This document shows positions 2,101 through 16,522 of a stretch of DNA of 64,000 nt, piece by piece. Source of the stretch: an uncultured Pelagibacteraceae bacterium (GTDB lineage Bacteria; Pseudomonadota; Alphaproteobacteria; Pelagibacterales; Pelagibacteraceae); the NCBI GenBank assembly GCA_902557995.1, contig CACECL010000001.1:98904-162903 (forward strand). The letters are read 5' to 3'. The notes under the pieces were generated by a model. That model was not told where the DNA came from, ran no database searches, and was given only the letters and a program-made list of their open reading frames with translations. The stretch's first letter is position 1. The number at the start of each line of letters is the position of its first letter. The position numbers and the translations under genes were made by a program.

Positions 2101-3069
2101 CTAACGCTGATATTCAATAAATTTCTTTAAAGATTTATTAAGAAATTTTTCATAAATTTCACCGTTATTTTTGAATTTACTACCATTCAAAAATGATTTG
2201 TTCATTTTGAAATCATAGGAAGGTTCAAAGAAAAAAGGAACAGACAGTCTCTTACTTTTATTCCATAAAACTCTGTGATTTGTTGCTTTAAATTTACCTT
2301 TGCTTAGAAACTCTAATGCCCTTCCCGTATTTACTACTAAAGCATTTTTGTTGAATGGTACATCATACCATTTTTTGTTTTTTCTATTTTGCACTTGCAA
2401 TCCACCTTTTCTATCTTGATAGAGAACTGTAAATATTCCACTATCAACATGTGTTTCACATCCAAGAGCAACCCCATCTTGTTTTGATATTTCCACTGGT
2501 TTTGTTTGGTTAGGGTAATAATTAAATCTTAATGTGCTTAATGTTTTTAATCTTGAAAAAGCTTTACCAGAAATATCAGGATTTTTTTTATTAAGTTTTA
2601 TTACACTTTTAAACAATGTCTCACTCAATCTATAAATTTTATCAAAATATTTGTTTAAAATGCTTATTGAGCTTTTATTTAAACATTTCCCTAGATTAAG
2701 ATGCTCTATGTATTGATTGTTTAGATTTGACGAATATTTTTTAGTTACCTTTAAATCACCTATATCTAAACCTTCTTTTCCATTTACATCATTAGGAAAA
2801 TATCCTCTATATAGATTTTTATTTTTTTTATTCCATTTTTTGGGTGCTAATTTCCTCTTTTTGTTATCTGGTAAATTAAAAAATTTATTTCCCACCCCAC
2901 ATGTTTTTTTAATTACTTTTAAATTAATTCCATGACCTGTAATTTGAAAAAAACCAACTTTGATACAAGCTCTTTCAATTTCTTTAATTGTTTTAAATGC
3001 TCTCTGAGTTTCAAAATTATTTTTAATTAGTGAAGATATATTGATGGTTGGTATATATGTTTTAGTCAT
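2101..3069 (-). CDS. Isopenicillin-N-synthase-family 2-oxoglutarate/Fe(II) oxygenase
   Basis: GCETHVDSGIFTVLYQDRKGGLQVQNRKNKKWYDVPFNKNALVVNTGRALEFLSKGKFKATNHRV...KRLSVPFFFEP: HxD...H facial triad and RxS motif. Confidence 0.88.
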   Translation of the reverse strand: MTKTYIPTINISSLIKNNFETQRAFKTIKEIERACIKVGFFQITGHGINLKVIKKTCGVGNKFFNLPDNKKRKLAPKKWNKKNKNLYRGYFPNDVNGKEGLDIGDLKVTKKYSSNLNNQYIEHLNLGKCLNKSSISILNKYFDKIYRLSETLFKSVIKLNKKNPDISGKAFSRLKTLSTLRFNYYPNQTKPVEISKQDGVALGCETHVDSGIFTVLYQDRKGGLQVQNRKNKKWYDVPFNKNALVVNTGRALEFLSKGKFKATNHRVLWNKSKRLSVPFFFEPSYDFKMNKSFLNGSKFKNNGEIYEKFLNKSLKKFIEYQR

Positions 3070-5033: not shown

Positions 5034-6020
5034 ATGATTTCTGAAGAAGATAAAATAATGATGGAAACCCTATATTGGTGGGGTATTCCAACTTTATTTA
5101 GGTGCAAAAATGATCCAGATCCTAAGAATTGTGACATTGCACTAGTTGGTGTTCCTCATAGCACAGGAAATGGAACTACAGAAAGAGATCAACATTTAGG
5201 GCCAAGAGCAGTTAGAAATATTTCTGCAATGTTGAGACGATCTCACTTTGATTACAAAATTGATCCTTGGAAAGAAAATAAAATTCACGATTTAGGAGAT
5301 GTTCCTTTTCCAGAAGCTAATGATAATGAAAAATGTATAGAGAGAATTTCAGCATTTTATGATCATATTGAACAAGCTGAAAAGCCAGTTGTTTCAATTG
5401 GTGGAGATCACTCAGTAACTGGTGGAATTGTTCAAAGTTTAGCTAAAAAAAATTCAAAATTAACTAAAGGAAAAAAAATAACATTTCTTCATTTTGATGC
5501 CCACACAGATTGTTTTGAAAAATTAGATCATTTTTTAGGTGCAAAAAAATCAGCAGCACATTGGGCTTCTTATTTAGTTAAACAAGGGAATGTTGATCCA
5601 CACACAAGTACTCAGATAGGTATAAGAGGAAATCCAAGAACATTAGATTGGTTACAGGCGAGTTACGATATTGGTTATCAAGTAATTACAATGGATGAAT
5701 ATAGAGAATGGGGTCATGAAAAATGTGTGAAAATGATTTTAGATAGACTAGGTGACAATCCAATTTATGTTACCTTCGATTTAGATTGTTTAGATCCAAC
5801 AGTAGCTCCAGGAGTAGCAAATATAGAACCTGCATATAAAGGATTTAATATGGATGAGGCAAGAAAACTTATTCAATGTTTAAAAGGAAAAAATGTTATT
5901 GGTGGTGATGTTGCTTGTTTAATGCCAACAAAAGATAGTCCAAATCAAATTACAGCAATGGTTGCAGCTTCTATAATGTTTGAAATTATTTGTTTAATTT
6001 CAGTTTATCGTAACAAGTAA
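5034..6020 (+). CDS. Ureohydrolase (arginase/agmatinase/guanidino-acid hydrolase family)
   Basis: Mn-binding motifs GGDHSV, HFDAHTD and FDLDCLDPTVAPGV. Confidence 0.87.
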   Translation: MISEEDKIMMETLYWWGIPTLFRCKNDPDPKNCDIALVGVPHSTGNGTTERDQHLGPRAVRNISAMLRRSHFDYKIDPWKENKIHDLGDVPFPEANDNEKCIERISAFYDHIEQAEKPVVSIGGDHSVTGGIVQSLAKKNSKLTKGKKITFLHFDAHTDCFEKLDHFLGAKKSAAHWASYLVKQGNVDPHTSTQIGIRGNPRTLDWLQASYDIGYQVITMDEYREWGHEKCVKMILDRLGDNPIYVTFDLDCLDPTVAPGVANIEPAYKGFNMDEARKLIQCLKGKNVIGGDVACLMPTKDSPNQITAMVAASIMFEIICLISVYRNK

Positions 6021-6022
6021 TT

Positions 6023-7603
6023 TTAATTTAAAATAAATTCGGATGCTCTTTCAGCAATCATTAATGTTGGAGCGTTAAGGTTTCCACTTGTAATTTCAGG
6101 CATTACAGACGCATCAACTACTCTTAGATTTTCAACACCATGAACTTTTAGTTTTTGATCTACAACAGCCATATTGTCTACTCCCATTTTTAAAGTACAA
6201 GATGGGTGGTAAGCAGTCTCAGCTTTAGATCTGATGTATTCTTCGAATACCTTATTAGTTTGGGCATGTTCTCCTGGTCCAATTTCTTTTCCTGCAAAAG
6301 GCTTCAAAGAGTCTTGTCCTAAAATTTTTCTAGCTACATGAATACATTCTATTGTTTGTTTTAAATCATCCTCATGTTCTAGATAATTAAATTGAATTTT
6401 TGGATAATCATAAGGGTTTGAGCTGTTTAAAGTTATATGACCTCTACTTTTTGGATGGTTTGGACTTGCATGTAACTGGTAACCATGCCTATCTGGATCA
6501 ACTAATCCATGATCGATTACAAAGGCAGGAAAAAAATGAAATTGAATATTTGGATACTCTCTTTCTGGAGACGATTTACAAAATCCTCCAGCTTCCAAGA
6601 AAGAAGTAGAACAAGGACCACTTCTATTCAAAAACCATTGAATTCCAATTCTAACCATATTTAACTTATTAACGTATGAGTATAAGGTGTCTTTAGTTTT
6701 ACATTCTTGCTGAACATAAGTTTCTAAGTGATCTTGTAAGTTTTTTCCAACACCCTCTAAGTTATGAACAACATCAATTCCTTTATCTTTTAAGTGTTGG
6801 CTTGGACCAATTCCAGAAAGCATTAGTAATTGCGGTGAATTAATTGCACCTCCACTTAAAATTACTTCTTTATTGGCATAAATCTTTTCGACTTTATTTT
6901 TTATTTTTACTTCAATTCCAATTGCTTTTTTTCCATCAAAAATAATTCTTTCAACAAAAGCTTCTGTAAATACTTTAAGGTTTTTTCTTTTTTTAGCAGG
7001 ATTTAAATAATACTTAGATACACTTGCTCTCTCTCCTTTATGGATAGTAACATCGTACATTCCAAAACCTTCTTGTTCTTTACCATTCATGTCGTTGTTT
7101 ATTTTATAACCAGCTTCACCAGCTGAATCGACAAATGCTTTGAATAAAGGGTTTTTATTTTTAGATTGGTTTACTGGAAGTATTCCACTGCCACCCCGAT
7201 ATTCATTTTCTCCTTCTGACCATGTTTCAATTTTTTTAAAATAGGGAAGAACTTTTTCATAAGACCAATCTTCCAATCCAAATGATGCCCATCTTTGATA
7301 ATCATTCGGATTACCTCTTACGAATACCATTCCATTATGCGCAGAACATCCACCAATCATTTTTCCTCTAGGACAGAATAATCTTCTGTTATGCAAGTGA
7401 GGTTCTGGTTCTGAATAATATTTGTAGTTATACTTTGGATCATGCATTGTGTATAAAATCGCAAGTGGCATGTTGACTTTCCAGATATCACTGGGTTTCC
7501 CAGCTTCAAATATTGCTACATTGTTTTGATCATTTTCTGTTAATCGATTTGCAAGTACACAGCCTGCACTTCCAGCGCCAATGATTAAATAATCGAAATT
7601 CAT
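6023..7603 (-). CDS. GMC-family FAD oxidoreductase, choline-dehydrogenase-like
   Basis: FDYLIIGAGSAGCVLANRL, RGKMIGGCSAHNGMVFVRGNPNDY, LSGGAINSPQLLMLSGIGP, YHPSCTLKMG. Confidence 0.88.
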   Translation of the reverse strand: MNFDYLIIGAGSAGCVLANRLTENDQNNVAIFEAGKPSDIWKVNMPLAILYTMHDPKYNYKYYSEPEPHLHNRRLFCPRGKMIGGCSAHNGMVFVRGNPNDYQRWASFGLEDWSYEKVLPYFKKIETWSEGENEYRGGSGILPVNQSKNKNPLFKAFVDSAGEAGYKINNDMNGKEQEGFGMYDVTIHKGERASVSKYYLNPAKKRKNLKVFTEAFVERIIFDGKKAIGIEVKIKNKVEKIYANKEVILSGGAINSPQLLMLSGIGPSQHLKDKGIDVVHNLEGVGKNLQDHLETYVQQECKTKDTLYSYVNKLNMVRIGIQWFLNRSGPCSTSFLEAGGFCKSSPEREYPNIQFHFFPAFVIDHGLVDPDRHGYQLHASPNHPKSRGHITLNSSNPYDYPKIQFNYLEHEDDLKQTIECIHVARKILGQDSLKPFAGKEIGPGEHAQTNKVFEEYIRSKAETAYHPSCTLKMGVDNMAVVDQKLKVHGVENLRVVDASVMPEITSGNLNAPTLMIAERASEFILN

Positions 7604-8136
7604 ATAAGTTTTGAACTTAACAACTTTTCATAGTCATGAATAGATTTCATTTTTATGTCAGTTCTTTTAGCGGCTTCGTCAAACTTTCTGACTAGAATTG
7701 ATGGCTTAAAGTAAGATTTATTCTCAAACTTTTTACTTTCTTTGTCATTTAAAACTCCGCCTTGTAATTTGAGGCTTATTTTTGACGCATCTGATAAAAA
7801 ATCAAAATATATTTTGTCTCGAGCCAAATAACGTTTAGCCAAAACATGGTATTTAATTGGCTCAACAATTTTTTGTCCAAAAAATTTTTTTAAATACTGA
7901 TATCCAATATTTTCATGCTCTCCATCTAATTTATTTTTAACTAATTCTTCAGGATCTTCTAAAAGAAAATGACCATAGTCATGAAGTAAACATGCACAAA
8001 TTAAATCATCATTACATTTAGCTTTTTCAGCAAGCATTGCTGACTGAATCATATGTTCTGACATAGTTACTTTCTCACCAATGTACAAAGATTTGTTATT
8101 TATAAAATTTGAAATGATTTTATAAATTATTTTCAT
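7600..8136 (-). CDS. HD-domain oxygenase of the PhnZ/TmpB type (phosphonate-degradation-associated HD protein)
   Basis: YIGEKVTMSEHMIQSAMLAE, CLLHDYGH, GEHENIGYQYL, KYHVLAKRYL, SLKLQGGVLNDKESKKFE, RKFDEAAK: full set of H...HD...H...H...D ligands plus the Y/E pair expected of PhnZ-like mixed-valent diiron oxygenases. Confidence 0.8.
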   Translation of the reverse strand: MKIIYKIISNFINNKSLYIGEKVTMSEHMIQSAMLAEKAKCNDDLICACLLHDYGHFLLEDPEELVKNKLDGEHENIGYQYLKKFFGQKIVEPIKYHVLAKRYLARDKIYFDFLSDASKISLKLQGGVLNDKESKKFENKSYFKPSILVRKFDEAAKRTDIKMKSIHDYEKLLSSKLI

Positions 8137-8139
8137 TTA

Positions 8140-8970
8140 TTATTGTGGATGATCCCCTTCAACAGCTATACGATCCATTACTCTTTCAAAACCAAGCCCT
8201 TTATTTGGATAAAAATCAGCAATAGCATAATGCTGAACACTTCTATTATCCCAAATAGCCACTGCATTTTCGGTCCATTTAAATCTACAGGTAAGATCTA
8301 ATCTTGCCTGATGTTCAAATAAATAATTTAATATCTCTTTACTTTCTTCTTTGTCCATACCAACAATTTCTTTTGTGTAAGTCCAATTTACAAAAAGAAT
8401 TTTTTTGCCTGTTTCTGGATGAGTTCTTAAAATTGGATGAGTGTTTGAGTATTCATCCATATTTCCATTACTTTGCATTGCTTTATATTTATCAAGGAAA
8501 AACCCACCTCCAAGTGAAGAATGAACTGCTTTTTTATTTTTAATTTTATTTTTTATCTCTTCTTCTAGGGTCTCCCACGCAAGTTCCATGTTTGAGAAAA
8601 CAGTATCTCCTCCAACTGGTGGAATTTTAATTGATTTTAAAATTACAGCTTTAGTTGGTTTTTCGTTATAGCTAACATCTGAATGCCAACCTTCACCCCA
8701 TTGTGTTTTTTCTTCAGGCTTTTTAATTATTCTTATTATTTCAGGGAATTCACTTAAACCTCTTACATAAGCATGTGTTTCTAATGGTCCAAATTTTGAA
8801 GCTAGAGCAACATGTTGTTCTGATGTCAAAGGTTGATTTCGAAAAAAAATAACTTTGTGTTCTAATAATAAGTTATTTATTTTTTTAAAATTTTCATCTG
8901 AAACGTCAGTCAAGTCAATTCCACTTATTTCAGCACCCAATGCTCCTGATAATAATTTTATATCAATCAT
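8140..8970 (-). CDS. TauD/TfdA-family 2-oxoglutarate-dependent dioxygenase
   Basis: GEGWHSDVSYNEKPTKAVILKS (HxD) and IWDNRSVQHYAIADFYPNKGLGFERVMDR (distal H and R). Confidence 0.9.
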   Translation of the reverse strand: MIDIKLLSGALGAEISGIDLTDVSDENFKKINNLLLEHKVIFFRNQPLTSEQHVALASKFGPLETHAYVRGLSEFPEIIRIIKKPEEKTQWGEGWHSDVSYNEKPTKAVILKSIKIPPVGGDTVFSNMELAWETLEEEIKNKIKNKKAVHSSLGGGFFLDKYKAMQSNGNMDEYSNTHPILRTHPETGKKILFVNWTYTKEIVGMDKEESKEILNYLFEHQARLDLTCRFKWTENAVAIWDNRSVQHYAIADFYPNKGLGFERVMDRIAVEGDHPQ

Positions 8971-9434
8971 TTTTTAAGTTTTCCAATAATGGATAAATTG
9001 TCAGAATTAAATTCATTTTTATTTTCATTTATAAAGTCATCCATAATTTTAATTTTTTCATCTTCAAATTCTGTAACTTTTCTTTTACTTAGATCAATAT
9101 AAAGCGCTAACATTTCAATAGTTGCTGATAATTTTTTTGATGATTTTTCAATCATTTCCATCTTGAAATGTAATCTCTTCTTATCATGATCAAAGAAGGT
9201 TAAAACAATTTCAACTTCATCTCCCTCTTTAACTTCACCATCATATGTAGTGTGAGTTTCAACAACCATGGTACTTCTTTGGGTATTCTTTGCAGATTTT
9301 TCACCCATCTTAAATTTTTCTAGAATTATCTCCCAAGTTTGATCGAAAACTAAGACATAGTAAGCCATGTTCATATGATTATTATAATCAGTCCATTCTT
9401 TTTTGATTGCTTGGTTTGTTATGTGAAAAGACAT
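8967..9434 (-). CDS. Hotdog thioesterase, carnitine-catabolic betainyl-CoA thioesterase type
   Basis: KKEWTDYNNHMNMAYYVLVFDQTWE and TTYDGEVKEGDEVEIVLTFFDHDKKRLHFKMEM; beside BKACE and carnitine dehydrogenase genes. Confidence 0.8.
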   Translation of the reverse strand: MSFHITNQAIKKEWTDYNNHMNMAYYVLVFDQTWEIILEKFKMGEKSAKNTQRSTMVVETHTTYDGEVKEGDEVEIVLTFFDHDKKRLHFKMEMIEKSSKKLSATIEMLALYIDLSKRKVTEFEDEKIKIMDDFINENKNEFNSDNLSIIGKLKK

Positions 9435-9481: not shown

Positions 9482-10369
9482 ATGAACAACAAGGTATTCA
9501 TATCATGTGCTGTGACGGGGTCAGGAGATACCGCAAGTAAGCATCCAGATTTACCAAAAACACCAGAACAAATTGCTACAGCATCAATTGAAGCTGCAAA
9601 AGCTGGAGCTGCTATTGCTCATATTCATGTGAGGGAGGAAGATGGAACTCCAAGTAGAAGATTAGAATTATATAAAGAGGTAATCGACAGAATTAGATCA
9701 AGTGATACAGATGTAATATTAAATTTAACAACAGGTATGGGGGGTGATCTTGATATTGGACAAGGTAAAAATCCTTTAGATTTTGGTCCTATGACTGATA
9801 TGGCAAATGTAATGGAAAGAATTGCAAATGCTGAACAATTTCTCCCAGAAATTTGTACTCTAGATGCAGGTACTTTAAATTTTGGTGATAGCTCAGTAAT
9901 CACAGTTAATACACCAAATGATTTAAGAAAAGCAGCAAAGAAATTAAAAGAGATAAAAGTTAAGCCAGAAATAGAAGCTTTTGATTTAGGAAACATGTGG
10001 TTTGGTGCGCAACTATATAAAGAAGGGTTATTAAGTGATCCACCGATGTTTCAAATGTGTTTAGGAATTCCATGGGGAGCACCTGCTACAACATTAGCTA
10101 TGCAAGCCATGAAAGATATAATGCCAAAAGAAGGTGTTTGGTCAGGGTTTGCAATTTCAAAAAATGAAATGCCATTTGTTGCTCAAACTGTTTTGATGGG
10201 AGGTAACCCAAGAGTCGGTTTAGAGGATAATTTATATTTATCTAAAGGTAAATTAGCTACTAATGCTCAATTAGTAGAAAAAGCTGTAAGAATAATAGAT
10301 GAACTTGGATATACCCCAATGACACCAGCAGAAACTAGAGAAAAATTAAAACTTGTTAAACACAAGTAA
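9482..10369 (+). CDS. BKACE-family beta-keto acid cleavage enzyme, probable 3-dehydrocarnitine:acetyl-CoA type
   Basis: VFISCAVTGSGDTASKHPDLPKTPEQIATASIEAAKAGAAIAHIHVREEDGTPSRRLELYKEVIDRIRSSDTDVILNLTTGMGGD; coupled to the next gene. Confidence 0.87.
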   Translation: MNNKVFISCAVTGSGDTASKHPDLPKTPEQIATASIEAAKAGAAIAHIHVREEDGTPSRRLELYKEVIDRIRSSDTDVILNLTTGMGGDLDIGQGKNPLDFGPMTDMANVMERIANAEQFLPEICTLDAGTLNFGDSSVITVNTPNDLRKAAKKLKEIKVKPEIEAFDLGNMWFGAQLYKEGLLSDPPMFQMCLGIPWGAPATTLAMQAMKDIMPKEGVWSGFAISKNEMPFVAQTVLMGGNPRVGLEDNLYLSKGKLATNAQLVEKAVRIIDELGYTPMTPAETREKLKLVKHK

Positions 10370-11310
10370 TGTCATCAATTAAAAAAGTTGCAATAATTGG
10401 AACTGGGGTAATCGGAGCAGGGTGGATCATACGTTGTTTGGCTCATAACAAAATTGTTTATGCATTTGATAAAGACATCAAGTTAAAAAATAATTTATTA
10501 TTAGAAATAAAAAGAACTTGGCCATTTGTAAAAAAACTATTTAATAAAAAAAAATTAAATCTAAATAATTTTCATTTTTTTACCTCAATAGAACAAACGT
10601 TAAAAAACGCAGATTTTATTCAGGAATGTGCAACTGAAAACTATTCTTTAAAAACTAAATTGATGAGCACCATTGGAAAATTTGCAAAATCTAACTCAAT
10701 AATTGCTTCAAGCTCATCGGGTTTGTTACCAACGAGAATTTATTCAAGATGTAAAAATCCAGAAAGAGGAATAATTGGACATCCATTTAATCCTGTTTAT
10801 TTATTGCCTGCAGTAGAAATTGTTCCAGGCAAAAGAACCTCAAAAAAAAATTTAAATTTGGCTAAAAAATTTTATAAATCAATTTCTATGAAACCAATTA
10901 TGGTTAAAAATGAATTACCTGGATATTTGTCTGACAGATTACAAGAAGCTTTATGGAGGGAAGGGCTACATATTATTAATGAGGGATATGCAACTACGGA
11001 AGAATTAGATAGAGCAATTGAAGATGGCCCAGGATTAAGATGGTCTTTGATGGGTACATTTTTAACCTTTCATCTTGCTGGAGGAAAAACTGGAATGAAA
11101 CATATGTTGGAACAATTTGGACCTGCTTTAAAATTACCATGGACTAAATTAAAGGCCCCTAAGTTATCAAAAAAATTATCTTCTAGACTTATTTCAGGAA
11201 CATCAAAACAGGCTAAAGGTAAATCGATTGCAATGATATCTAATATAAGAGACCAGTATTTAGTTGATATTCAAAAATTAAGAAAGAAATATGAAAAAAA
11301 ACTTAGGTAA
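10369..11310 (+). CDS. L-carnitine dehydrogenase (3-hydroxyacyl-CoA dehydrogenase superfamily)
   Basis: KKVAIIGTGVIGAGWIIRCLAHNKIVYAFD, FIQECATENYSLK, GHPFNPVYLLPAVEIVPG, LWREGLHIINEGYATTEELDRAIEDGPGLRWSLMGTF. Confidence 0.87.
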   Translation: MSSIKKVAIIGTGVIGAGWIIRCLAHNKIVYAFDKDIKLKNNLLLEIKRTWPFVKKLFNKKKLNLNNFHFFTSIEQTLKNADFIQECATENYSLKTKLMSTIGKFAKSNSIIASSSSGLLPTRIYSRCKNPERGIIGHPFNPVYLLPAVEIVPGKRTSKKNLNLAKKFYKSISMKPIMVKNELPGYLSDRLQEALWREGLHIINEGYATTEELDRAIEDGPGLRWSLMGTFLTFHLAGGKTGMKHMLEQFGPALKLPWTKLKAPKLSKKLSSRLISGTSKQAKGKSIAMISNIRDQYLVDIQKLRKKYEKKLR

Positions 11311-12103: not shown

Positions 12104-13129
12104 TTAAGATTTTGTTAGTGATGTCTGTAGTTCTTTATTTGATATATAACCTTTTACATTTCCACTTTTATCAACAACCTCACAGTTTGAATTTGAACAA
12201 ACAATTTGAGGTAAAAATTCTTCTATAAATTGATCTTCATTAACTTTTATTAAATTAGATTTATCAATATCATTAGCTTCCTCTGTTTTTTTCATAACTA
12301 CTTTGGCTTTAATTACTTTTGCTCTATTTACATCTTTAACGAATGCTTTCACATAATCATCTGCTGGGTTCATTATAATATCTACTGGCGTTCCTACTTG
12401 AACTAACTTACCAGCATTTAATATTCCAATATGATCCCCAAGTCTTAATGATTCATCTAAATCATGAGTAATAAATACGATTGTTTTTTTCAATTCTGAT
12501 TGAAGATCAAGTAATTGTTTTTGCATATCACTTCTAATTAAAGGATCTAATGCACTAAAAGCTTCATCCATTAACATTATATCACTATCTGTAGCTAAAG
12601 CTCTTGCTAAACCTACACGCTGTTGCATACCACCTGATAATTGATTAGGAAATTGATTTTCAAAACCAGTTAAGCCAACAGCTTCAATTTTTTCCATAGC
12701 AGTTCTATCTCTTTCATCCTCAGGTTTACCCTGCATTTCCAAACCATAACCAACATTTTGCAAAACAGTTTTGTGAGGAAATAAACCAAATCTTTGAAAT
12801 ACCATGCTCATTTTATGTCTTCTAAAATCAATGAGCTGTTCTTTATTGAATGACATTACATTTGTTCCTTCAACTAAAATTTCCCCATCAGTTGGATCAA
12901 TCAGTCTGTTAAGATGTCTAATTAGTGTAGATTTTCCTGATCCTGAAAGACCCATACATACAAACGTTTCGCCTTCCTCAATATTCAATGAAACATTATC
13001 AAGTCCAACTGTATGTCCGGTTTGTTCTAAAACCTCTTCTTTGTTGGCACCATCTTTTACCATCGGCATTACAGACTGAGGATTGTTTCCAAAAATTTTG
13101 TAAACATTTTTAATCTCTATTTTAGACAT
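12104..13129 (-). CDS. ProV-type betaine/carnitine/choline ABC transporter ATP-binding protein with C-terminal extension
   Basis: Walker A GLSGSGKST, LSGGMQQRVGLARAL signature, MLMDEAFSALDP Walker B. Confidence 0.9.
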   Translation of the reverse strand: MSKIEIKNVYKIFGNNPQSVMPMVKDGANKEEVLEQTGHTVGLDNVSLNIEEGETFVCMGLSGSGKSTLIRHLNRLIDPTDGEILVEGTNVMSFNKEQLIDFRRHKMSMVFQRFGLFPHKTVLQNVGYGLEMQGKPEDERDRTAMEKIEAVGLTGFENQFPNQLSGGMQQRVGLARALATDSDIMLMDEAFSALDPLIRSDMQKQLLDLQSELKKTIVFITHDLDESLRLGDHIGILNAGKLVQVGTPVDIIMNPADDYVKAFVKDVNRAKVIKAKVVMKKTEEANDIDKSNLIKVNEDQFIEEFLPQIVCSNSNCEVVDKSGNVKGYISNKELQTSLTKS

Positions 13130-14154
13130 TATTTACCTTTCTTTTTTTCTGGAGCTCGTCTTTCTTGTAAAGTTTCTCCGTAAGATTGAGTTATTCTATC
13201 AAGCACGATAGCTAAAAGCACTATCGCAATTCCTGCTTCTGCAGCTCTTCCAACATTTAGCTGCTGTAAACCTAGCAGAACTTCATCACCTAAACCTCTT
13301 GTTCCAATCATTGATGCTATAACCACCATAGATAAAGCCATCATTGTACATTGGTTTATACCTTGCATAATATTGGGTAAAGCTAATGGCATTTGTACAC
13401 CCCATAATTTTTGTTTTTTACTTGCACCAAATGCATCTGCTGCTTCAATTACCTCTTTATCTACAAGTCTTATTCCTAGATCTGTTAGTCTGACCAAAGG
13501 AGGTACTGCATAAATAAATGTAGCAATAATTGCTGGAACAGCACCTAATCCAAAAAGCATTATTCCAGGAATTAAATATACAAATGCTGGAATGGTTTGC
13601 ATTAAGTCAAGAACTGGGAGTATTTTGTTTCTTATCCTTTCAGCTCTAGACATTAAAATTCCGACAGGCATTCCAAATACCAAACAAAGAAAAATACTTA
13701 TTAACATGATGGCTGTGGTTTCGATTGCTTTTTGCCAAAATATTGGATGTAAGAAGCCAATAAAGAAAGTGCAAAAACCAACAAATACAGTTGTTCTTAT
13801 TTTTCTTCCACTTGCAAAATAAGCTATAACTGTAACCCCTAACACTACAGCTGGCCATGGAGCTAATATTAAAAAATTTTTTAAAGCCATCAGCATTGCT
13901 AGTAAAAAATTATTTATTGCTTCAAAAATAAAACCATAAGTTTCATTTAATTTTTTAAAACCAACATTTATCCACTTCATTAATGGAAGGTCTAACCATT
14001 TGGGCCATTTTTGTAGCCAAGAAAAATCGTTTAGTAATTCACCTACATTTTCTGGCTTTCTTTTTGAAGAGCTATAACTAATTATTAGTAGCCAAACAAA
14101 AAAGACTAAAAGACCTATATTAAAAAATAGTTTTTTATTTTTTTTTATATCCAT
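13129..14154 (-). CDS. ProW-type ABC transporter permease
   Basis: EAADAFGASKKQKLWGVQMPLALPNIMQGINQ EAA loop. ATG at 14154 preferred; the track start at 14229 would read through a terminator hairpin and a tandem repeat. Confidence 0.85.
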   Translation of the reverse strand: MDIKKNKKLFFNIGLLVFFVWLLIISYSSSKRKPENVGELLNDFSWLQKWPKWLDLPLMKWINVGFKKLNETYGFIFEAINNFLLAMLMALKNFLILAPWPAVVLGVTVIAYFASGRKIRTTVFVGFCTFFIGFLHPIFWQKAIETTAIMLISIFLCLVFGMPVGILMSRAERIRNKILPVLDLMQTIPAFVYLIPGIMLFGLGAVPAIIATFIYAVPPLVRLTDLGIRLVDKEVIEAADAFGASKKQKLWGVQMPLALPNIMQGINQCTMMALSMVVIASMIGTRGLGDEVLLGLQQLNVGRAAEAGIAIVLLAIVLDRITQSYGETLQERRAPEKKKGK

Positions 14155-14160
14155 TAGATG

Positions 14161-14200
14161 AATTTTTAATCTTAATAATAAATTTTTAATCTTAATAATA
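14161..14200. repeat. Perfect 20-bp tandem duplication AATTTTTAATCTTAATAATA x2
   Basis: Both copies read directly at 14161-14180 and 14181-14200. Confidence 0.97.
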
Positions 14201-14227
14201 AAAGAGCCCTCGAAAAAGGGCTCTTTC
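14201..14227 (-). terminator. Intrinsic-terminator-like hairpin between substrate-binding protein and permease genes
   Basis: aaagagccct-cgaaaa-agggctcttt, followed on the minus strand by a T-rich tract. Confidence 0.8.
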
Positions 14228-14243
14228 AAAATTTAATTATAGA

Positions 14244-15260
14244 TTACAACGCAGCAGTAACTTTAGAAGCTACATCAGCTGGAACCCAGCTTTTCCACAT
14301 TGATTCTGTTTTTAAAAACTCCTTAGCAGTTAATTCCATGTCACCATCCGACTCATCTTCGTAGAATGCCAACATTTTGTTAACGGTAGCTGTTGGAATA
14401 GTGTATTTCTTTAAAAACTCAGTTTCAGCTGGGTGAGCTTTTGCCCAATCAGTTAAAACAGATTTTGTTAAAGCCATATCTCTATATTCACAAGCACAAC
14501 TTTTTTTATAAGCATCAGGACCGTTTGCTTTAATATCTTCTACAACTGCAGACATTTTATTCCAGCAATCAGAATCAAAAGCAGGTTCACTTAGTCTAAC
14601 AAGGTCAACTTTTCCCATTAAACCAGTTGGTGCCCAGTAGTAAGTAAAGATAGGTTTTTTCTTAGCGAAAGCACCAGCAATAGCAGCATCTAATGCACCA
14701 CCAGAACCTGGGTCAAAGTTAGTATAGTATTTATCTAAACCATACTCTATTTGTTTAACCATGTTAACTGTGTAACAAGTCCAACCAGAAATACAGCTAG
14801 TCATTCTACCTTTAGATGGATCTTCAGGATCTTTAAATAGCGCAGCTATTTTTGGATCTTTCATATCTTCTACAGATTTTAAGTTGTATTTATCAGCTGT
14901 TGCCTTATCAACATAAAACGCTTGTTGAGAGTCTGGTGTGTTCACTCCAATATTTTGAATTGTACCAGCTTGTTCATGTGGCTCGTAGTTAGCAATAATA
15001 TTGTCATACCAAACTTCAGTAATAACATCTAACTGCTTATCATAGTGTGCAGCCATGATAGGTGTAGTACTTCCTTTAGTTACTGAAACCTCACAACCAT
15101 AGCCTTTTTCAAGAATAAACTGAGTGATAGCAGTATGAATGTTTGCACTACTCCAGTCGAAATCTCCCAATCTAGCCTTACAGTCACCTGCATTAGCATT
15201 ACTAACAACTAAAGATGATAAAAGGAAAATTGAGATAGTTAATCTTTTTAAAAACTTCAT
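14244..15260 (-). CDS. ProX/ChoX-type periplasmic betaine/choline/carnitine-binding protein
   Basis: N-terminal signal peptide; DFDWSSANIHTAITQFILEKGYGCEV, YDNIIANYEPHE, GRMTSCISGWTCYTVN. Confidence 0.86.
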   Translation of the reverse strand: MKFLKRLTISIFLLSSLVVSNANAGDCKARLGDFDWSSANIHTAITQFILEKGYGCEVSVTKGSTTPIMAAHYDKQLDVITEVWYDNIIANYEPHEQAGTIQNIGVNTPDSQQAFYVDKATADKYNLKSVEDMKDPKIAALFKDPEDPSKGRMTSCISGWTCYTVNMVKQIEYGLDKYYTNFDPGSGGALDAAIAGAFAKKKPIFTYYWAPTGLMGKVDLVRLSEPAFDSDCWNKMSAVVEDIKANGPDAYKKSCACEYRDMALTKSVLTDWAKAHPAETEFLKKYTIPTATVNKMLAFYEDESDGDMELTAKEFLKTESMWKSWVPADVASKVTAAL

Positions 15261-15391: not shown

Positions 15392-16522
15392 GTGAGTGCA
15401 ATTTCTAAACTTGAAAAAAATTCTACTTATCTAAAAGTTATTTGGAGTGATGGCGAAGAGAGCAAATTCAATTATCTTTGGTTGAGAGATAATTGTCCAA
15501 CAGCTCATGACAAAGACTCAAGACATCGAATGTTTAATATATTGAATGTATCACAAAATATTAATCCAAAAAAATATTCTCTAAGTGCAGACGGAAAATT
15601 AGAGATTGAATGGAGTGAAGGAGATCATACAAGTTATTATGACCCTAAATGGCTAAGAGAAAATTGTTATACTTTAAAACATAAACAAAAGTATATTTCT
15701 CCCTATAAACTTTGGGACAGTTCACTTGAAAAAAATTTAAAGTCTATTCAAATTGATCATGACGAAATTATAAGTTCTGATGACGGATTAATTAAATGGT
15801 TGAGACTTTTGCATCACACCGGGATAGCAATAGTGAAGAATGCACCAGTTGAAAAAAATTCAGGATTAAATGTATTAAATCGAATAAGTCATACTCGTGA
15901 AACATTTTTTAAAACACCTTTTGAAGTAATTAACATTCCAAAACCAAATAATTCGGCATACACAGCTCATGCATTGAGAAATCATATGGATTTACCTTGG
16001 TTTGAAAATCCTCCAGGATATCAATTTTTACATTGTTTGGTAAATTCTGCAAAAGGAGGAGACTCTTCTGCAGTTGATGCTTTTGCAGTGGCAGACTATT
16101 TAAGAAAAAATGAAAAGGAAACTTTTGATATTTTAGTTAATACTCCATTGAAATTTAGAGATAAAGATTATACCCAAGAAGCAATTAGAAGTGTTCATGG
16201 AACAGCAATTTCACTTACAAAAGATGGAGATTATAATGATATTCGATACAGTATTGCAACTTTAGATGCACTTGATTGCCACCCAGATGTAATGGATTCA
16301 ATTTATAAAGCACATCATCGATTTGGTAATCTGTTACATGACACTAAATTTCAAATTAATTTTAGATTAGAGCCAGGTGATATTTTTTCATTTAATAACA
16401 GAAGACTGCTACACGGCAGAACGGAATTTGATCCAAACTCAGGACACAGGCACCTTCAAGGTTATTATATGGATAGGGACGAAATAATTGGTAGATTAAA
16501 TTATCTTAAGCAACAATTATAA
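15392..16522 (+). CDS. Gamma-butyrobetaine hydroxylase/TmpA-like 2OG dioxygenase with N-terminal DUF971-like domain
   Basis: VIWSDGEESKFNYLWLRDNCP then RNHMDLPWFENPPGYQFLHCL (HxD) and NRRLLHGRTEF. GTG start. Confidence 0.83.
   Translation: MSAISKLEKNSTYLKVIWSDGEESKFNYLWLRDNCPTAHDKDSRHRMFNILNVSQNINPKKYSLSADGKLEIEWSEGDHTSYYDPKWLRENCYTLKHKQKYISPYKLWDSSLEKNLKSIQIDHDEIISSDDGLIKWLRLLHHTGIAIVKNAPVEKNSGLNVLNRISHTRETFFKTPFEVINIPKPNNSAYTAHALRNHMDLPWFENPPGYQFLHCLVNSAKGGDSSAVDAFAVADYLRKNEKETFDILVNTPLKFRDKDYTQEAIRSVHGTAISLTKDGDYNDIRYSIATLDALDCHPDVMDSIYKAHHRFGNLLHDTKFQINFRLEPGDIFSFNNRRLLHGRTEFDPNSGHRHLQGYYMDRDEIIGRLNYLKQQL

Follow-up and report, generated by a model that had tools for sequence, protein, structure and literature searches.

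A PhnZ/TmpB-family HD protein beside a TauD-family dioxygenase in a SAR11 carnitine/glycine-betaine island and its possible part in quaternary-amine phosphonate breakdown

Which reaction would an HD-domain protein of the PhnZ/TmpB family carry out when it is encoded within a carnitine/glycine-betaine island of SAR11 (Pelagibacteraceae)? The question is raised by a four-gene cassette in a 64,000-nucleotide stretch of an uncultured Pelagibacteraceae genome (contig CACECL010000001.1, positions 98,904 to 162,903; this whole stretch is referred to as the window). An earlier note on this DNA had described four co-directional open reading frames with overlapping or near-abutting ends, and all four were confirmed on the minus strand, in the order thioesterase (8967..9434, 155 aa), TauD-family 2-oxoglutarate (2OG)/Fe dioxygenase (8140..8970, 276 aa), HD-domain protein (7600..8136, 178 aa) and GMC oxidoreductase (6023..7603, 526 aa). 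The thioesterase and TauD genes overlap by 4 bp, TauD and HD are separated by a 3 bp gap, and HD and GMC overlap by 4 bp; the Pfam domains above cut-off are, gene by gene, 4HBT_2, TauD, HD and GMC_oxred_N/C. Since the block is whole in about 40 SAR11 loci and TauD lies directly before HD in 34 of the 42 HD-bearing genomes of the genus, the arrangement is not due to chance. Its closest relatives are Pelagibacteraceae single-cell genomes, with HD protein identities of up to 99%. The reading we prefer, with a probability of roughly 0.4, is that the HD protein would carry out a TmpB-like reaction that converts a 1-hydroxy-2-trimethylammonio-alkylphosphonate to betaine and phosphate, and that TauD would be the likeliest hydroxylase, with an HD-independent role as well.

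Family and loop type of the HD protein

When the HD protein was aligned with PhnZ, its residues Y18/E21/H28, H52-D53, H74, H97, K101 and D153 corresponded to Y24/E27/H34, H58-D59, H80, H104, K108 and D161, bearing out the residues and the PhnZ spacing quoted earlier. The metal-ligand pattern of the PhnZ/TmpB di-iron oxygenases (H...HD...H...H...D) is present as H28, H52, D53, H74, H97 and D153. The YxxE substrate loop, a feature of PhnZ and TmpB that is found in neither MIOX nor hydrolases (PMC8177086), is represented by Y18 and E21 and is invariant throughout the SAR11 HD clade, as are the metal ligands and the equivalents of PhnZ H62, K108, S126, Q133 and R158 (H56, K101, S118 and R150 among the protein's own residues). 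In a phmmer search against all PDB sequences, TmpB came out at E 8e-31 and PhnZ at E 4e-27, with no HD hydrolase among the matches up to E 10; a profile of 22 relatives returned TmpB at 1e-71 and PhnZ at 3e-51, all others being at 0.011 or worse. In a fold search of the PDB with the AlphaFold2 model (pLDDT 92, pTM 0.89), the top ten matches were PhnZ/TmpB chains (E 1e-11 to 3e-10), followed by the first hydrolase at E 0.14 and MIOX at E 0.32. Taken together, the sequence, profile and fold searches give good support for placing the protein, as the earlier note had done, in the PhnZ/TmpB family and not among the hydrolytic HD phosphohydrolases, and it is predicted to be an oxygenase.

The same data bear on the idea that HD has no phosphorus role and, in the way that MIOX acts on inositol, splits a C-C bond in a hydroxylated relative of betaine or carnitine. 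In its favour are the amine-based chemistry of the island and the fact that no gene for phosphonate transport or other phosphorus metabolism adjoins the cassette, but MIOX matches the fold only remotely and the five PhnZ-equivalent residues named above are invariant, and we regard it as unlikely.

As to the subtype, all three NCBIfam scores lie under their cut-offs (163 bits against 214.6 for the Phn-HD model, 154 against 300 for the TmpB model NF049941 and 136 against 300 for the hydroxymethylphosphonate type), so that the HD protein reaches no equivalog model; the true TmpBs of three other loci (L149, L159 and L162) score 312-365 bits on the TmpB model. In the tree, the SAR11 cassette HD proteins form a separate clade (support 100/99), and the approximately unbiased (AU) test accepted equally its grouping with TmpB (p 0.52) and with phn-linked proteins (p 0.48).

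The loop that follows the first His ligand was more telling. In proteins of the PhnZ type, position 31 is Gln and position 35 is Ala, Ser or Gly (PhnZ numbering), while in the TmpB-clade proteins and all SAR11 cassette HD proteins position 31 is Met or Ile (Val or Thr in rare cases) and position 35 is Met; the window protein, with Met25 and Met29 in place of PhnZ Gln31 and Ser35, has the Met-type and not the PhnZ-type loop. This loop type is an empirical marker derived in the present analysis from 55 HD loci of other Pseudomonadota, in which a true TmpA (more than 400 bits, within 1.5 kb) was found at 21 of 22 Met35 loci and at none of the 33 others (Fisher p 3e-14, with shared ancestry ignored and the Met35 loci coming mostly from one clade). 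The Met residues of the loop may touch the trimethylammonium group. Judged by its sequence, the HD protein is a member of a known family that stands in its own clade and is not a canonical TmpB, yet carries a TmpB-type loop. Elsewhere, one Met-type HD gene without TmpA was observed downstream of genes that by inspection resemble phnJ and phnK of carbon-phosphorus (C-P) lyase (L166:3781-6867).

A second SAR11 HD type, 38-42% identical to the window protein, lies mostly beside phnX and phnCDE. Among 101 relatives, PhnD was present in 17 of the 18 genomes with this second type, the exception (G062) having a Met-type HD, and was found in none of the 12 carriers of the window type. The two-residue loop signature and the co-occurrence of PhnD separate both SAR11 HD types from sequence alone. 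These results make it quite improbable that HD is an ordinary PhnZ for 2-aminoethylphosphonate (2-AEP) or hydroxymethylphosphonate that lies in the island by chance: its best NCBIfam score is indeed that of the general Phn-HD model, and the tree places it equally well on either side, but the loop is of the TmpB and not the PhnZ type, PhnD is missing in the carriers, and the island holds no other phosphonate gene.

The TauD-family enzyme and the proposed reaction

The protein encoded at 8140-8970 consists of a TauD domain only, the GBBH-like N-terminal domain of TmpA/BBOX oxygenases being absent. It gave no match to NF049936 at E 0.01, its score on the TauD equivalog PRK09553 (232 bits) is below the cut-off of 313, and among PDB entries it is closest to phenoxypropionate and taurine dioxygenases. 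By these sequence features it is a TauD-family protein, neither TmpA nor PhnY. Compared with E. coli TauD (36% identity), it retains H99, D101 and H255, which we take to bind Fe, T126 and R266, presumably for 2OG, and H70, R270 and V102, presumably on the sulfonate side; Y73V, D94W and N95G are replacements at what we take to be the taurine amine side, and F206 is replaced by Tyr. The loss of polar amine-binding residues and the gain of a Trp suggest a quaternary amine substrate without being proof of one; no account of TauD acting on taurine betaine was found in the literature searched. Apart from position 159 (F, A or S), the pocket residues are alike between the 60 copies that adjoin an HD gene and the 18 copies scored as lacking one, although two of those 18 (L255 and L256) do have an HD gene that the motif scan overlooked. 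Outside SAR11, a reference set without PhnY* (PhyH family) identified neither TauD nor GMC next to HD at any of 40 alphaproteobacterial HD loci, and a TmpA-like gene or one resembling gamma-butyrobetaine dioxygenase (BBOX) lies next to HD in about half of them.

Both the TmpB-type loop and the location within a carnitine/betaine island favour a trimethylammonium substrate. In our proposal, TauD would hydroxylate the carbon beside the anionic group and would be the likeliest source of the HD substrate, which is most likely (R)-1-hydroxy-2-trimethylammonioethylphosphonate. HD, acting as a mixed-valent di-iron oxygenase, would then oxidatively cleave the C-P bond of this 1-hydroxyphosphonate to phosphate and a carboxylate, in this case glycine betaine, a product that the island would already make from carnitine. 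HD is an optional module of the island. In genomes without HD, TauD would probably act on a sulfonate or sulfate analogue that decomposes once hydroxylated. A bolder and fairly doubtful form of the proposal is that one TauD-family enzyme may hydroxylate both the sulfonate and the phosphonate analogues of choline, of which the sulfonate would decompose by itself and the phosphonate would need HD. If so, a single added gene would extend a sulfonate-to-betaine route into one that yields phosphorus.

Gene combinations in SAR11 relatives

We surveyed 201 genomes of the genus, and because many of them are incomplete, the absence of a single gene is weak evidence while gene orders are firmer. Window-type HD was found in 42 genomes and TauD in 65, TauD being present in 36 of the 42 HD carriers and in 29 of the 159 others (p 5e-16, without ancestry correction). 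GMC follows HD in every locus with enough sequence except two (G020 and G934), in which HD adjoins an EamA transporter and a TmpA-like gene, and TauD-GMC remains in the island without HD. The order thioesterase-TauD-GMC, lacking HD, was seen in several loci, and thioesterase-GMC alone in three. An interrupted TauD copy that the genome-wide search had overlooked lies beside HD in G855 (locus L252), which is therefore not a case of HD without TauD. Most HD carriers have the two genes side by side, yet TauD often occurs without HD. HD and TauD are separable, and the cassette is a modular part of the SAR11 carnitine/glycine-betaine island.

The best NCBIfam match of the thioesterase is to a fused carnitine 3-dehydrogenase, in its C-terminal part; such a thioesterase fusion is carried by the carnitine dehydrogenase of an alphaproteobacterial locus (L159), while the window dehydrogenase is short, and the thioesterase is probably the betainyl-CoA thioesterase of carnitine breakdown. 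The genome was found to encode two GMC proteins; the one in the cassette passes the cut-off of the choline-dehydrogenase model PRK02106 (749 bits against 605) and falls short of that of BetA TIGR01810 (681 against 732); it would oxidise a choline-like alcohol. As the thioesterase fits carnitine breakdown and GMC has only a broad choline-dehydrogenase match, neither has to act on the HD product. That the four enzymes form a single linear pathway from a quaternary-amine phosphonate, the strongest form of the earlier note's reading, accords with the co-directional, overlapping genes and with an order kept in about 40 loci, but every gene is missing from some otherwise whole cassettes, and the known two-enzyme systems need no thioesterase or GMC. 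Because TauD, HD, thioesterase and GMC occur in differing subsets, the cassette is not one obligate four-enzyme pathway, and the linear scheme is very improbable. The quaternary-amine phosphonate reading of the earlier note is partly supported: loop and island favour its substrate class, and the single four-enzyme route is not supported. What looked like an HD-GMC pair in a contig filed as Saprospiraceae (L097, JALQTV010000272.1) was rejected as an assembly chimera, the contig beginning with about 130 bp of SAR11 HD/GMC sequence (L097:1-130) joined on at a conserved GMC motif.

Several observations weigh against the TmpB-like step fed by TauD. The HD protein is far under the TmpB cut-off, at 154 against 300 bits, and the AU test is indifferent to its placement. 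TauD occurs without HD, and with the same pocket, in 29 of the 65 TauD-bearing genomes, and three loci (G010, G873 and G954) show the order thioesterase-HD-GMC without TauD. The immediate neighbour of HD is not TmpA, and a true TmpA is found in five of the 201 genomes, four of which carry HD (p 0.007); in these four of the 42 carriers it lies elsewhere in the genome, so that some carriers have a classical hydroxylase too.

The strongest competitor, which we hold to be somewhat doubtful, retains a TmpB-like HD and lets its substrate come from a TmpA/BBOX-family enzyme elsewhere or be imported already hydroxylated, TauD acting independently, for example on taurine betaine or choline-O-sulfate. 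It is consistent with the TauD genes that lack HD, with HD without TauD, with the true TmpA genes of HD carriers and with the two genomes in which a TmpA-like gene, and not TauD, adjoins HD. It is opposed by the lack of a true TmpA in most HD carriers, by the loss of N187 and N287 from the TmpA-like protein common in SAR11, and by the position of TauD immediately before HD in the large majority of carriers. Two candidates for such an enzyme were considered. The BBOX-like gene of the window (15392..16522, plus strand) was ruled out as TmpA, as its product scores 319 bits for the BBOX type and 273 bits on the TmpA model (cut-off 400) and is without the TmpA phosphonate contacts N287 and R288. 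As a general partner of HD, the TmpA-like protein that is widespread in SAR11 was weakened by the replacement of N187 and N287 and by its frequent occurrence without HD.

Related arrangements were seen in other SAR11 genomes. Five of them (L200:3564-9217 and L243-L246) have, at one locus, a true TmpA in place of the usual TmpA-like gene, accompanied by an EamA transporter and by genes resembling dimethylglycine dehydrogenase. In many others (L201:7445-9087) a TmpA-like 2OG gene overlaps that of a divergent 183-aa HD protein, which had no Pfam match and only 51 bits on the Phn-HD model; its neighbours are genes for acyl-CoA synthetase, BKACE, carnitine dehydrogenase and BBOX, and in genomes of the window genus it lies beside purF instead. 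Related HD genes are present at L202:7885-8442 and in L205.

The island and its relation to known systems

The cassette is divergent to a plus-strand BKACE gene (9482..10369), which is followed by a gene for an L-carnitine dehydrogenase-like protein without a fused thioesterase domain (10369..11310, plus strand). Beyond these lie genes for an SDR, an ABC transporter, the BBOX-like dioxygenase, a GDPD, an ALDH and a 3-hydroxyisobutyrate-dehydrogenase-like protein. The transporter, of the ProX/Opu betaine/choline/proline type, is encoded by three minus-strand genes (12104..15260) and is a possible importer of island substrates. At the other end, an agmatinase-like ureohydrolase gene (5034..6020, plus strand) is convergent with the cassette and adjoins it in many relatives. 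An isopenicillin-N-synthase-like 2OG oxygenase (2101-3069), which had no NCBIfam match, lies beside two EamA transporters and is kept near the cassette in many SAR11 genomes. In five loci (L076, L082, L089, L249 and L258) the cassette is found away from BKACE and carnitine dehydrogenase, beside genes that by inspection are proteorhodopsin-like and flotillin-like and one for a large protein that, also by inspection, resembles a dimethylformamidase subunit. The sampling sites of the single-cell genomes, most named plates being Atlantic, were not used as a sign of phosphate limitation, since a background frequency is absent.

Compared with TmpA/TmpB of Leisingera caerulea, which convert 2-trimethylaminoethylphosphonate to glycine betaine, the window HD shares family, fold, ligands and the Met-type loop, but it is only 37-38% identical to TmpB and below its cut-off, its 2OG neighbour is of the TauD family, and it has GMC and thioesterase neighbours. 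In two other alphaproteobacterial loci (L159 and L165), a true TmpA-TmpB pair shares an operon with BBOX, BKACE and carnitine dehydrogenase, the same metabolic setting as that of the window cassette, and these operons are an independent precedent for grouping TmpAB with carnitine genes. With PhnY*/PhnZ (2-AEP to glycine), the window HD has in common the HD fold, the ligands, the YxxE loop and the phosphonate-site residues; it differs in the two loop Met residues, in having TauD instead of PhnY* and in the lack of a phosphonate transporter.

The island itself has been described in Arctic SAR11 as an ABC transporter, carnitine dehydrogenase, BKACE, BBOX, ALDH, thioesterase, BBOX(2), choline dehydrogenase and DMT transporter (PMC12421898). 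The window has the same gene set, with ABC transporter, carnitine dehydrogenase, BKACE, BBOX, ALDH, thioesterase and choline dehydrogenase all present, but the published list contains no HD gene, and where its second dioxygenase is called BBOX(2) the window has the TauD-family gene, the two being equated from position. One global survey, in which phnZ is taken to encode a 2-AEP enzyme, assigns 45% of marine phnZ sequences to Pelagibacterales (PMC9381506), and according to another only the original one of the phnZ subclades is 2-AEP specific (PMC8316502). Pelagibacterales phnZ homologues, phnZ subclades and the SAR11 betaine island are thus already known; probably new are TauD as a 2OG partner and a non-2-AEP identity for much of the SAR11 'phnZ'. 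No TauD-HD pair, nor an HD gene in this island, was described in the literature searched, which was mainly open-access and did not include the original TmpA/TmpB paper.

If the bolder, dual-substrate form of the proposal is true, HD oxygenases would have in TauD a third type of 2OG partner in addition to PhnY* and TmpA, and this in the bacteria that are most abundant in the ocean. The HD gene may also add a phosphorus-releasing branch to the known SAR11 betaine island. If the SAR11 gene encodes a TmpB-like betaine enzyme, a large share of oceanic 'phnZ' would signal quaternary-amine phosphonates.

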